Positions 2,465-32,527 of a stretch of DNA of 64,000 nt are shown here, in pieces (positions within the stretch are counted from its first letter, which is position 1; the number at the start of each line of letters is the position of its first letter). Source of the stretch: Nitzschia sp. pyKryTriq1 (taxonomy: Eukaryota; Bacillariophyta; Bacillariophyceae; Bacillariales; Bacillariaceae); contig OY101116.1 in assembly GCA_956465555.1 (NCBI GenBank), positions 558,001 through 622,000 of the forward strand. The letters are read 5' to 3'. The position numbers were made by a program, and so were the translations under genes. The notes under the pieces are model-generated. The model ran no database searches and was not told the DNA's origin. It saw only the letters and a program-made list of their open reading frames with translations.

Positions 2465-4445
2465 CTATGCACATTGGTAGGTCTCTGGGGTAAAGCTCTT
2501 GGTCAATTGGTTGGGAATGGGAGCCCCCGACGTGGCGTTGGTGATCCCCGTAAGGGTAATGGGGCAGAGAAGTGTCTCCGATCGGAAACCAATTTGAATC
2601 GGGAAGAACACATCGGGGTTGTTTCCTGGAATGCTGAATTCGAGACTGCCCGAGTTTGTGTCCGCATCCAAGGTATCAAAATGCCAACACATCATTCCTG
2701 CTCGTGGATCATGTTTGAATTGACCATCTATGTTTTCAATCGACGGCGCTTCCGTAGTACCAAGCGGTAATAGGATGTTTACGTCATGCAGGACCAAGTC
2801 GGATCGAGTCATTTCCATTTCAATGTTGACATTGATCATGCCCGAACCTTCATCTTCTGGCCAACAGTTGATAGTGATGGGAGCCGCATCTTCACCGCTA
2901 TACGACCAACGCAGGATACCCACAGCACGACCCACAGGAAATCCTTTTCCACCCTTGAGCGACAAGAGGCCTTGTTGTTCATACCCCTTCTTGTCCACCT
3001 TGGGGTGCGTCGCATAGTTAAATGTAGACGGCAGTTGTGCTTTGTTGACAGCAATGACCGCTGCAGCTCCGACGTCTGTATTCGCTGTAAGATTCAAGAT
3101 ACCCTTGATTTCGCAGGCTTCGACTGCACCTTCGCGAGTCATGTTGCAAGAAATCTTCTCTTCCAAAACCAGTGTGAGAGGAGTAGACGGGGCCGCCACT
3201 GGAGCTTCGACTGGGGCACCGAATCCAAAGTCGGCTGCGGCGCCTCCCTTGGACCCCCCAAAGAGGTTGTCTTCTGCAGCCATGGCGGCCATGAGGGAGT
3301 CTTTCTTGCCTCCGCCCATTCCACCGAGTTTCATACCCGACTTGGCCAGTACCTTGGGGGCCGCAGGAGCCGGAGCCGTTGGCTTTTGGAGTGCTGCGTA
3401 CGGATTGAACTCCTCTTGTTGAGCCCCGAAGCCTTGTTGATCTTGCTGCATTTGATCGAACATACCTCCACCGTGGCTGGGATGTCCACCTCCTCCACCA
3501 AAGCCTTCCATACCCCCCATAGGCGCAGTAGGAGCTTGACCCGTGACAAATGTCTGTCGAAGATTCGCCATCTTTTGCTCTTGCAAAGCCTTGGCCTTTT
3601 GTTGCATTTCGTGTCGAGCTTGTTCTTCTCTGGATTGCCGAAGAGCAATGGCGATCTTTTCTTCGTGACTGTCCATGAGCAGATTCGTTCGGATCGAGGA
3701 CAAGGAGGCTTCTTCCTTGTATCCACCTGCAGTCAAGACTTCATCGAAGGCAAAGATGAGCTCAAATGCGTGCTCGTTGATAGTATGCTCCTGCAAGCCC
3801 CCAGCTACATCTGGTACCACCTTGGCCAGGAGTCGCAAAGTTCCCAGGTCCTCTACAATGTTGCTGGCTTTCGTAGTGATCAACAGGAGATACAGGTTGT
3901 TCTCGAGAGGTTGGTACACATAGCGCACGGAATCCGTCTCGACAAATGTGTGCTGCTTGGCAGTCAGCCCGACCAACTTGGGGAAGGCTGCCAACAAGCC
4001 CTCGACGCGTAGTCGATTCATCTCGACGAATTGACGCGAGACGAGGGCCTTGCCCTGTCGGGTACAAACCGAGGCCGACAATACCACCTGCGGACACAAA
4101 CACGCACACACACACAAGATCGCAGCAAACGGAAGGTGAGTCACTGACGGTAGTAGTAGATAGAGAGTCGAACACACTACGATTGTACCGTATTCGTTTG
4201 TGCCTTCGTGCTAATCACTTTGAGATGAAACGGATAGATGATTCATCATCCAATACCATTACAGCGGTGCAGGCCATGGCCGATGCACATCGTCACTGGT
4301 GCATGATGTTTATCGCGAGCCAATTTACGGACAGACAGACGGTAGTTGTGACCCAAAAATGACGGCGATTGGCGCGAGCCTTGATCGTATCGAGGATCTC
4401 CCAACGACGCCATGGAAACATAGATCCCTTTGCATTGCTTACCAT
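2465..4445 (-). CDS. ARCN1: Coatomer subunit delta (delta-COP)
   Basis: This is the delta subunit of the COPI vesicle coat, which works at the Golgi in retrograde transport. The N-terminal longin-like domain has the family's RQGKALVSRQFVEM, EGLLAAFPKLVG, KQHTFVETDSVRYVYQPL and FELIFAFDEV. A helical Lys/Gln-rich linker and a Gly/Pro-rich hinge follow. The C-terminal mu-homology domain carries KVDKKGYEQQ, ITINCWPEDEGSGM and SLEFSIPG. The family begins M-V-(V/L)-L; here VVLSASVCTRQGKAL starts immediately after a CAG acceptor at 4088-4090. The only upstream in-frame solution I see is ATG at 4443-4445 directly followed by the donor GTAAGC. Model: exon 1 = 4443..4445 (Met only), intron 4088..4442 (355 bp), exon 2 = 2465..4087, 541 residues. 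Confidence in the identity is very high; the exon 1 model is good. Confidence 0.93.
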
Positions 4446-29605: not shown

Positions 29606-29639
29606 ATAAGCCGTGTCGCGCGAGCGCGGGTCACCGGAA
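29606..29639 (+). repeat. Left terminal inverted repeat (34 bp)
   Basis: Exact reverse complement of 32494-32527 over all 34 bases. Beyond the repeat, the next ~20 bases on each side are only loosely alike (both AT-rich with AATTTT). An outside flank of inverted octamers (CCGTCCGT and ACGGACGG near 29556 and 29594) adjoins this end. Confidence 0.9.
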
Positions 29640-29841
29640 ATAATTTTGGCCACGAATTTTCTTTGTCCGTCGCGGAGAATCATGCCCATCTCCAACCGAC
29701 AGGCTAGAAGTAGTTGACCATGGCAAGGATGTTTCTACTCACCATGTGCATTAAATTTCAACCAACATAGATTTTACATTGTACAAGTACGACTTCCGCT
29801 ACCCGATGGTCGTCAATTAGATCATAAAATGGCCTGCTACG

Positions 29842-30870
29842 ATGAGCAGCGATTCCCCTGCCGGGGCCTTGATTCCACGCTTTGGCAAGGTGGATCAACG
29901 CAAATGCGTTTGTGCTCGCCCCGCATGCAAGGAGCTCTCGAAGAAATACCAGCTTTTGAAAGACATACGAGGCAACTACACACAGTATCCACTAACCAAT
30001 TCCAACATCGAGGTGAAAGACAAGGTTGAGCGCCTCCATCTCAGGCACTTGCGTGCTTCTTCGCAGAATGTGGCCACAAGTGGAAGACGCTCGCGTGCTG
30101 GTGGCATTATGGAAACCAGGAATACTACCAGTCAACCCACATACGACAGGAAATATGTCGCTTGGCACCACTACCATCCTGCCTTGATCAAGAAATTTGC
30201 AATGAACAAGCAGAAGAGACGCTACGACCGACCTGACATGGTTCCAAGGGACTTTGTGGACAAGTGGATACGTCAGGACAAAGATAACGGATACTCGGAC
30301 CTTGAAAAGCATATTTTGGATGGTCTGCCATGTTACATCTTTGTACCAAGCTATCCCCTTGCGCAGGCACAAACGGATGTGGTATCAGTGGAGGAATGGC
30401 AACGACTGGAAGATGAAGCCTCCAGTCTAGAAGCAAAGGCTGCAGCAATTCGGAACCAGAGACAAGCACGCATTGCTCCTCGCATTGCTCCTCCTCGATC
30501 TGATACAATTACCAGCTTGCAACAAGAGCTCGCCGTATGCAAAGATGTGATTGCTTTGCAAGATCAGAGGAAAAGAAGCAATCCAGTTTTCTCCCCCTCA
30601 CCTGCAAGGAAGAAGCGGGCGAAGAAGGCGACTGGTGATGATTCGTTGGCGCTCGGTGAAGTACGGACACTGACTGGGAGTCATGGAGGCCTGAATAGGC
30701 TCTCAATTGCAAGCAACGAATACCATCAGCAGTTTCCAAAAGCAGCTAAGGAGCTTCTGAGGCTGATTCAAGAATTTGGAAACGGATGTAACCACCATTG
30801 CCCCGAAGCAACAAGCGGGGCAATGGGGGCAACGGTGGGTCTCGTGTTGCTAGATCAACGACCGTATTGA
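29842..30870 (+). CDS. Element-borne basic protein with N-terminal Cys cluster and coiled coil, unknown function
   Basis: 342 residues, single exon as read. The N-terminus has a Cys group, RKCVCARPACKELSKKYQLL, followed some 30 residues later by RLHLRHL; this Cys/His spacing could form a zinc-binding DNA-binding module, but it does not fit a family I can name. A middle region (KYVAWHHYHPALIKKFAMNK, VPRDFVDKWIRQDKDNGYSD) looks globular. Residues about 195-215 form a coiled coil (EEWQRLEDEASSLEAKAAAI), then Arg/Pro-rich sequence, a second helix (SLQQELAVCKDVIALQDQRK) and a bipartite-like basic cluster (ARKKRAKKA). Lying alone with a nuclease between inverted repeats, it may be the end-binding or transposition partner; that is inference. 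The last 40 codons run antisense through the 3' end of the nuclease gene, so the true stop may differ. Confidence 0.6.
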   Translation: MSSDSPAGALIPRFGKVDQRKCVCARPACKELSKKYQLLKDIRGNYTQYPLTNSNIEVKDKVERLHLRHLRASSQNVATSGRRSRAGGIMETRNTTSQPTYDRKYVAWHHYHPALIKKFAMNKQKRRYDRPDMVPRDFVDKWIRQDKDNGYSDLEKHILDGLPCYIFVPSYPLAQAQTDVVSVEEWQRLEDEASSLEAKAAAIRNQRQARIAPRIAPPRSDTITSLQQELAVCKDVIALQDQRKRSNPVFSPSPARKKRAKKATGDDSLALGEVRTLTGSHGGLNRLSIASNEYHQQFPKAAKELLRLIQEFGNGCNHHCPEATSGAMGATVGLVLLDQRPY

Positions 30871-32221
30871 CTATTTTGTCGCGGCGTTCAGCGGGATCGT
30901 CAATCTTGTTGAAGTCGTTCGCAATTCCTCTGGCGGCCAACCAAAATAGCAACTGATTTTCGTGTAGGAGACGAGCAGGCCTCTTCTCAAAATCTATTAT
31001 CGAACCGTGGCACAGGATTTCGCCCTTGTCATTGCACAGATCTGGAATTCCTTCCACGGCTTTACCAGTTCTGCTCCATTCTTGCATTCTGAAGAACTTG
31101 TTGTACCGATCACCATCTTGTGCATTCGGTAGTTCGGCCGATGGAATGAAGCCAATTCGAAGATTATCCGTGGATCCCTCCGGGTTGATCCAATACCCGT
31201 CTTGGAGACTCTCTGCATCACCGTCCATCGAACGTAGTTCGACCGTAAAATCACCGGATAGGAAGGCGGATCGAGGTGTCTCACCCTCCGTCGTCGGCTG
31301 CACGTAGAAAGCTGGCGAATGCTCCCACAATTCCACGGCATGGTTGAATTTGCAAGACAACGGGGCACCCTGCTTTGATAAATATTCCCTAGTAATCTCC
31401 GCTCTGTCATCCGGTGTATCACATTTCACCCAAGTGATCATACGCTTTATGTTGGCATGGATCCCCTCCCCACGAGTGTTTGGGACGTAGTCGTTTCCCT
31501 GGAAACACGAGAAATACGTAAGGTCTTCTTGTGTGAGATCCCGATCTGATTTGAACGCAGTTTTCAAATCAGAACATTCCAAAATGCGCTGGACTAAGCA
31601 ACATTTCCCAGAAGCTGACAGTCGCATTATCGTTTTCGTAGCACCTTGTAGAGGAATATCGGAATCTTCCGTGAGTGCATAGTCTACGATCCCTTGAGCA
31701 AACAGTGAAATGATTTGACTATCAGCCTCAAAGGGTGCACCAATGTACCGAATGTCTTCCTTTTCGCAATACTTTATAACCTCGTACATTAGATCATCCC
31801 GAATGTATACTGCGCCCTTTTGTAGTTCCATAATCCTATTGAAGGTAGAGGTGGGATCCAAGTATCCATCTCGAAGCTTCTCCAAGTTGAAGTCTCGATC
31901 GTGGTATCTCTTAACATGTGTTGCATCCTTCAATGGATGGTACTTGCCATCAAACACAAACAATGGTTCGAATCCGGCTTTTCTCAAAAGCTCGACACGA
32001 GCACTGATACAACCATTGACTTCCGTGACTGGAACCTTCGGTTCGAGGAAGAACTGCCTCTTTACGTCAGCTTCTCGGATTGCTTTGTGCAACCAAATAG
32101 ATACATCCACTGCTACCAGTGGGTTTGGCTCACCATCTGTGTGATCCTTACGAATACCACCCAGAGTGTGGGTGTATCCTTGTGAAGGGCGGAGGAATTT
32201 GGCGGCGTCTTTGACACCCAT
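30746..32221 (-). CDS. FEN1/XPG (Rad2)-family structure-specific 5' nuclease in a TIR element
   Basis: XPG-N and XPG-I regions with the metal-binding acids in place (numbering from the ATG at 32239, six codons upstream of the start used). They are D45 (LVAVDVSIWL), D97 (LFVFDGKYHP), E171 and D173 (GAPFEADSQ; usually E-x-E), D192 and D194 (LTEDSDIPLQGA), and D250 of GNDYVPNTRGEGIHAN, which also begins the helix-two-turn-helix DNA grip. The family cuts 5' flaps or junctions in DNA using two metals. I start at MGVKDAAKFL (32221) because FEN1/XPG proteins begin Met-Gly-(I/V), and the N-terminal Gly sits by the active site; that gives 491 residues. The C-terminal 200 residues (TVELRSMDGDAESLQDGYWI onward) are not typical of FEN1 and no PCNA-binding QxxLxxFF is evident. 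This looks like an element-borne nuclease rather than the housekeeping FEN1. Confidence 0.82.
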   Translation of the reverse strand: MGVKDAAKFLRPSQGYTHTLGGIRKDHTDGEPNPLVAVDVSIWLHKAIREADVKRQFFLEPKVPVTEVNGCISARVELLRKAGFEPLFVFDGKYHPLKDATHVKRYHDRDFNLEKLRDGYLDPTSTFNRIMELQKGAVYIRDDLMYEVIKYCEKEDIRYIGAPFEADSQIISLFAQGIVDYALTEDSDIPLQGATKTIMRLSASGKCCLVQRILECSDLKTAFKSDRDLTQEDLTYFSCFQGNDYVPNTRGEGIHANIKRMITWVKCDTPDDRAEITREYLSKQGAPLSCKFNHAVELWEHSPAFYVQPTTEGETPRSAFLSGDFTVELRSMDGDAESLQDGYWINPEGSTDNLRIGFIPSAELPNAQDGDRYNKFFRMQEWSRTGKAVEGIPDLCNDKGEILCHGSIIDFEKRPARLLHENQLLFWLAARGIANDFNKIDDPAERRDKIVNTVVDLATRDPPLPPLPRLLLRGNGGYIRFQILESASEAP

Positions 32222-32493
32222 GATGACACTGTGAGACAAAAATTATCGTTGCTTGACATAATATACTATCATCCCTTACCATGGTACCCTACTCGTAGCT
32301 AGTTGATAGCATCCAACAAATTACACCAGCAGTTCCAGCATACATTAGGGTGGGTTGTGAGCACCAGAGCAAACATAGAGAGAAAGTATTGTACAACGGA
32401 GGTCGGTCATTGTCATGGTGGCTTATTGTGACTTGTGAGTGGATCGATGAGCTGAAAAGGCCGCATGGGTGCGCGAATTTTCCGAAAAATTGG

Positions 32494-32527
32494 TTCCGGT
32501 GACCCGCGCTCGCGCGACACGGCTTAT
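32494..32527 (-). repeat. Right terminal inverted repeat (34 bp)
   Basis: Exact reverse complement of 29606-29639. It lies 272 bp upstream of the nuclease start, so the nuclease promoter lies inside the element next to this end. Confidence 0.9.

Follow-up and report, generated by a model that had tools for sequence, protein, structure and literature searches.

How does an element with terminal inverted repeats (TIRs) come to carry a FEN1/XPG-like nuclease and no visible transposase? The question is raised by positions 29606-32527 of a 64,000-nucleotide stretch of the diatom Nitzschia sp. pyKryTriq1 (hereafter the window; C2:558001-622000 of a 40.65-Mb, 20-contig genome assembly), where an earlier note on this DNA had described perfect 34-bp inverted repeats around two open reading frames (ORFs), one encoding a Rad2-family nuclease and the other a partner protein. 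Both repeats and ORFs were recovered: the repeat arms (29606-29647 and 32486-32527) are complementary at 40 of 42 nt (95%), with the outer 34 perfect; the partner ORF (29842-30870, forward strand, 342 aa) starts 203 bp inside the left TIR, and the nuclease ORF (30746-32221, reverse strand, 491 aa) starts 272 bp inside the right TIR. The family to which this focal element belongs is a real, recently active transposon lineage, and the missing transposase is most simply explained by deletion: the element is probably a non-autonomous derivative, shortened by internal deletion, of a PIF/Harbinger-ISL2EU-like transposon in which an XPG nuclease takes the place of YqaJ. Its features, in window positions, are as follows.

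29606..29639, forward strand: left TIR, 34 bp perfect, 42 bp at 95%
29842..30767, forward strand: partner ORF, authentic part (about aa 1-308), with a Cys-rich N-terminal domain (CxC...C, WHHxHP, FVPSY) and a coiled coil by eye
30768..30870, forward strand: partner ORF tail (aa ~309-342), antisense to nuclease codons past the junction and not original coding sequence
30760..30770, no strand: approximate internal-deletion junction, where the two ORFs run into each other; alignable nuclease ends at focal aa 485, and the C4 copy is alike
30746..32221, reverse strand: XPG/FEN1-family nuclease ORF, 491 aa, truncated; an 840-aa relative extends ~350 aa further
31895..32221, reverse strand: XPG_N domain (PF00752, Pfam), aa 1-109
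31490..31753, reverse strand: XPG_I domain (PF00867, Pfam), aa 157-244
32494..32527, reverse strand: right TIR, ending in AT

The same ends recur across the genome, as the earlier note had anticipated. A 20-bp TIR core, searched with up to three mismatches, matched 43 times (22 + 21) compared with once (0 + 1) for a reversed-pattern control, which places the resemblance of the repeats beyond chance; 26 of these matches form 13 two-ended elements, and among the 17 single ones some, only a few, may be chance. This is a multi-copy TIR family with two subfamilies, deletion derivatives and miniature inverted-repeat transposable elements (MITEs). Six of the 13 two-ended elements are ~510-bp MITEs, one of which (C3:755209-755719, the only MITE examined in this way) is 87% self-complementary end to end and holds no frame longer than 53 codons; the outer 62 bp of this foldback MITE match the left end of the focal element. 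Another two-ended element is 281 bp long, and a 36-bp scrap at C2:2469565 consists of two joined TIR ends. The TIRs of the second subfamily, B, read TAAGGCGCGTCGCGCGAGCG (~43 bp at 93%), and when the focal element and the B element on C4 were used as DNA queries, a decayed B copy at C1:3789663 and further ends (for example, C16:792032 and C13:302216) were added; no recognisable middle was found in that older copy (92%) or at the solo end C17:355052. C2:4249321-4251861 and C4:1524700-1527240 form a block of at least 2,541 bp, 100% identical and in inverted orientation, that includes one MITE, and because the elements C2:4250313 and C4:1525740 lie inside this one block they were scored as a single insertion. 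Beyond this genome, the plasmid collection scanned held no relative, and none was confirmed among viral contigs scanned with proteins P0001 and P0004 and profiles A5, A9 and A8.

The nuclease belongs to the XPG/FEN1 (Rad2) family, in agreement with the earlier note. The focal ORF contains XPG_N (E 4e-10) and XPG_I (E 3e-11), both above the Pfam cut-offs, and seven acidic positions (D39, D91, E165, D167, D186, D188 and D244) are invariant between it and two database proteins, P0005 and P0006; these occupy the places of FEN1's seven catalytic acids. P0005 and P0006 were the only relatives retrieved by a protein database search with the nuclease (among the 8,000 best candidates), and against the NCBIfam FEN1 and RAD2 models the nuclease scored below cut-off. 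The longest nuclease in the family is an 840-aa protein of subfamily B (C2:2268164-2270686, in the copy C2b), which is 52-53% identical to the focal protein up to focal residue 485 of 491 (window position ~30767) and extends 350 aa past the end of this homology; P0005 also continues beyond the focal end, aligning with the 840-aa extension to residue 536. Because homology stops at aa 485 while both relatives go on, we conclude that the focal nuclease has lost its C-terminal part. In the 840-aa protein the XPG nuclease leads into a middle part that is conserved; next come a pair of SAP-like helices and CTCANGCFFCAH, which by eye resembles a SWIM-like CxC..CxH finger. The helix pair (focal aa 421-458) is the best part of a poor structure model; SWIM and SAP are by-eye labels, since Pfam gave no family for the SWIM-like tails alone, and an Ish1 match in P0005 was weak (E 0.15).

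The same internal deletion explains how the two ORFs of the focal element meet. The partner frame stays open across position 30767 and stops 103 bp later within nuclease codons, and the DNA under this partner tail still aligns, as nuclease, with the 840-aa relative and P0005 up to focal aa 485. In the C4 copy, the partner frame enters nuclease sequence and stops ~20 bp in, and the nuclease frame stops ~10 bp past the junction. The 3' overlap in the focal element is a deletion scar, not gene anatomy, and the partner ORF is a stub; because its frame crosses the junction, the original partner was longer than ~308 aa. Thus, where the earlier note had counted exactly two genes with overlapping 3' ends, the two ORFs stand but the overlap does not, being the point near 30767 at which truncated ORFs meet; the partner keeps the Cys-rich N-terminal domain and (by eye) the coiled coil ascribed to it, but is cut by the deletion and is not a complete gene product. 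The suggestion of a non-autonomous relative fits, with the same ends in several copies and an internal deletion relative to a longer relative.

Nuclease and partner lie tail to tail in all four copies that retain both (focal, C4, C10 and C9b), and the partner proteins of the two subfamilies are 33% identical. Blocks shared among subfamily B copies are mostly 98.9-100% identical (for example, 99.9% over 2,527 bp between C2b and C9a; two 97% blocks, against C8, include a length difference), which argues that the subfamily spread recently. Its copies differ in their deletions, at junctions that share ~0-3 bp (read by eye): C2b (C2:2267733 to ~2270926) retains the 840-aa nuclease, but the partner is gone and one end is short of its last 12 bp; in C9a the start of the nuclease is missing; in C8 the nuclease is interrupted by two gaps; and C4, C10 and C9b keep partner sequence and the nuclease only in parts. 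The partner-side junction is the same in C2b and C9a, although the two copies occupy different loci, and it seems that a form already deleted was mobile (gene conversion being also possible); the junction in C8 differs and leaves ~55 bp more of the middle.

The partner is recognisable by its motifs (CxC..C, LxDxRxxY, WHHxHP and FVPSY) and, used alone or as a three-member profile, retrieved only itself from the protein database. Matches of the partner, P0002, to a PHROG of unknown function (E 0.004) and, below the Pfam cut-off, to PH_10 (E 0.014) and POPLD (E 0.029) were judged to be chance. A host-like frame at C2:3375357-3377603 (799 codons; 749 aa or more when counted from the ATG, the frame running off the locus examined) carries the partner's Cys-rich N-terminal domain (E 1.8e-7; 1.7e-5 in the reverse search). 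It may have been domesticated from a transposon, or it may have supplied the partner with this domain.

An indication of what the missing middle may have encoded comes from other genomes. A scan of genome contigs with the nuclease profile matched 67 stretches, of which two were confirmed: L078 and L079, contigs of 4.3 and 4.1 kb that were binned into bacterial metagenome-assembled genomes (MAGs), where they are probably eukaryotic contaminants. Each carries an XPG ORF (699 aa in L078, 525 aa in L079) tail to tail with a transposase ORF, the layout of the focal family; the transposases match DDE_Tnp_4 (E 7.8e-27 and 2.8e-29, respectively) and HTH_Tnp_4 (E 2.5e-12 and 1.2e-6), with D-D-E residues aligned by eye. 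In L078, 30-nt TIRs (97%; 386-415 and 4206-4235) enclose just the XPG and transposase genes and read ATTGACAC...GTGTCAAT at their ends, with AT at both; L078 also has a CxC..CCHIG finger. No such TIR pair was found on the L079 contig, where only 33 bp precede the ATG of the nuclease. With the transposase of L078 as query, each MAG gave one match.

AT also marks the ends of the diatom family, which were compared for 12 insertions (11 of the 13 two-ended elements and the 36-bp scrap; C4:1525740, a duplicate, and C9a, with a mutated end, were left out). AT was present at 23 of the 24 ends and GT at one, the T belonging to the search pattern, and the adjoining outer bases favour Y-AT-R (pyrimidine in 18 of 24). 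Beyond AT, none of the 12 insertions showed a match of 3, 4 or 5 bp, and three showed one of 2 bp (0.75 expected). AT can be assigned to the TIR or to a duplication, because it is palindromic, and the first two bases of the focal left TIR may be target duplication instead of element; a duplication is favoured because AT likewise stands at the ends of L078, whose TIR is different.

To place the nucleases, we built trees with five host genes that we take, from sequence features, to be FEN1 (C7), EXO1 (C1), EXO1-like (C3), RAD2 (C13) and GEN1 (C16); a sixth host gene, asteroid/MKT1-like (C8:1764128), was left out. Of the 11 PF00867 matches genome-wide, five fall within copies of the focal family. 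On nuclease cores only, the focal, B, P0005 and P0006 nucleases group apart from the five host genes (97/96), and this four-member group stays when L078 and L079 are added (93/91). The focal nuclease shares the XPG core and catalytic acids with host EXO1, FEN1, RAD2 and GEN1, but is mobile and stands apart from the host genes in this tree. A single-copy TIR with a nuclease inside the host clade, the outcome that the earlier note had set against its own reading, was not what we found: the ends are multi-copy and the nuclease branches apart from the five host genes. The host EXO1-like gene (C3:1490923-1493049) scores 57 bits to L079 and groups with L078 and L079, not with the other EXO1; this could reflect kinship with transposon nucleases or a long-branch effect.

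Together, these results suggest a scenario in which the complete form would be a two-gene DNA transposon, with a DDE transposase (the partner) and an XPG nuclease tail to tail. The partner ORF would then be the N-terminal, DNA-binding stub of a DDE transposase of the PHIS kind (PIF/Harbinger-ISL2EU-Spy) whose helix-turn-helix (HTH) and DDE parts went with the deleted middle. Copies would have been cut and pasted in trans at AT by an intact transposase, either still in existence or recently so (its copy having been lost or not assembled), and interrupted gap repair with ~0-3 bp of microhomology could have produced the deletions. The XPG protein, with its by-eye SAP-like and SWIM-like parts, may serve as an accessory 5' nuclease in the YqaJ slot, for example in 5'-end resection or trimming at the donor or insertion site.

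Several results weigh against this reading. No copy with the middle was found in this genome, and none of the six DDE_Tnp_4 matches genome-wide (four above cut-off) lies near a partner-domain match. The search of the 342-residue partner for DDE or zinc-finger domains that the earlier note had proposed gave no family above the Pfam cut-off (single match, E 0.24). Layout is the only tie between the focal family and L078/L079, since the partner stub had no BLASTP match to their transposases at E <= 0.01; a DDE identity for its missing part would follow from position and orientation. Both AlphaFold models were of low confidence (pLDDT 42 and 41). In the tree, the L078 and L079 nucleases join the host EXO1-like gene instead of the focal group (83/91, with a long-branch warning), which leaves room for more than one capture of XPG; with these two added, the tree neither fixes the deeper order nor shows that the XPG-bearing elements share an ancestor. 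Finally, the target duplication of the family is AT or none, and no empty site spanning a junction was found for 12 joined flanks (40 of 110 candidates scored), so that cut-and-paste at AT is not proven.

Other explanations draw on the same observations. The XPG/SWIM-like nuclease might itself be the transposase, with the partner as an end-binding protein, in a family that never had a DDE enzyme: among the copies read, no intact ORF exceeds the 840-aa nuclease in length; the catalytic acids are kept; C2b and C9a, which share their deletion junction at two loci, have the nuclease without the partner; and the copies read contain no DDE, with no DDE_Tnp_4 match inside any two-ended copy. We nevertheless consider this unlikely, as XPG genes do exist beside DDE transposases in the same layout (L078 and L079), and the want of a DDE in the focal and C4 copies says little because both ORFs are visibly truncated there. 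Flap nucleases are not known to excise and insert TIR elements, and little credence would attach to a transposon superfamily in which an XPG nuclease with fused SAP- and SWIM-like parts excises and inserts TIR elements at AT without DDE.

A missing middle could conceal any transposase, including that of an Academ-type transposon with a DDE transposase and an XPG nuclease, to which the earlier note had tentatively linked the element; an XPG nuclease inside a TIR transposon is a feature of Academ. Descent by deletion from such an element is doubtful, and the proposed kinship is not supported: the 3-4-bp duplication of Academ has no counterpart in the focal family (of 12 insertions, none matches over 3 or 4 bp beyond AT), and both transposases found beside XPG genes are DDE_Tnp_4, the comparison with Academ being by features and not by protein. 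Transposons can also capture host genes, and one host-like gene (C2:3376857) has the partner domain, as might be expected if a host repair gene pair had been bracketed by unrelated MITE-type TIRs (transduplication). But the same pair lies between the diverged TIRs of the second subfamily, which indicates that it is transmitted with them, and the nuclease stands apart from the five host genes, so that transduplication seems very improbable.

If the focal element is a deleted PIF/Harbinger-ISL2EU-like copy, its nearest known counterpart would be ISL2EU, which pairs a DDE-HTH-THAP transposase with a YqaJ protein, generates an AT duplication and has TIRs that 'usually' begin GG (PMC4482050); the two-ORF layout is also described in PMC9179366. 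The likeness lies in a TIR element with two genes (a nuclease and, in L078 and L079, a DDE transposase with HTH) and AT ends compatible with an AT duplication. The differences are that the nuclease here is XPG/FEN1, not YqaJ; that the TIRs start (A)TAAGCC/(A)TAAGG or (AT)TGACAC, not GG; that the outer bases are Y-AT-R, compared with the A-AT-T site of ISL2EU; and that no DDE gene of the focal family's own was seen in this genome. The Kolobok lineages KolobokD, KolobokE and KolobokP, which add various nucleases beside a DDE transposase (PMC9587614), are alike in having an accessory nuclease but differ in transposase superfamily and in nuclease type (DEDDh, lambda-exo-like or His-Me).

DNA transposons repeatedly acquire accessory nucleases, YqaJ in ISL2EU being one example (PMC4482050). 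Among the literature matches listed, in a search outside which most subscription papers fall, we found no description of an XPG-bearing PHIS element or of the focal lineage, and the paper passages that were searched for XPG did not name it. A PHIS-like lineage with XPG in the YqaJ slot would, if true, represent an independent swap between 5' nucleases (5'-to-3' digestion being common to lambda exonuclease and EXO1) and would point to a shared requirement that 5' ends be processed during transposition or repair of the donor.

One DDE_Tnp_4 match (C4:2494561-2494866), interrupted by a single in-frame TAG, is separated by 0.9 kb from the lone MITE end C4:2495815. Neither a second TIR nor any credible match to partner or nuclease (best E 0.06) was found in this 6.5-kb locus (L054), and we regard the match as an unrelated Harbinger-type gene next to a fragment of a MITE, its proximity being probably chance. 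The focal element itself is inserted where the earlier note had placed it, between a TLDc gene (PF07534, above cut-off) and an O-FucT-like gene (PF10250, below cut-off). The right flank of one MITE (m6; C4:1733156-1733213) is part of a dispersed repeat beginning ~9 bp away from the junction, with at least 28 further matches, 87-96% identical.

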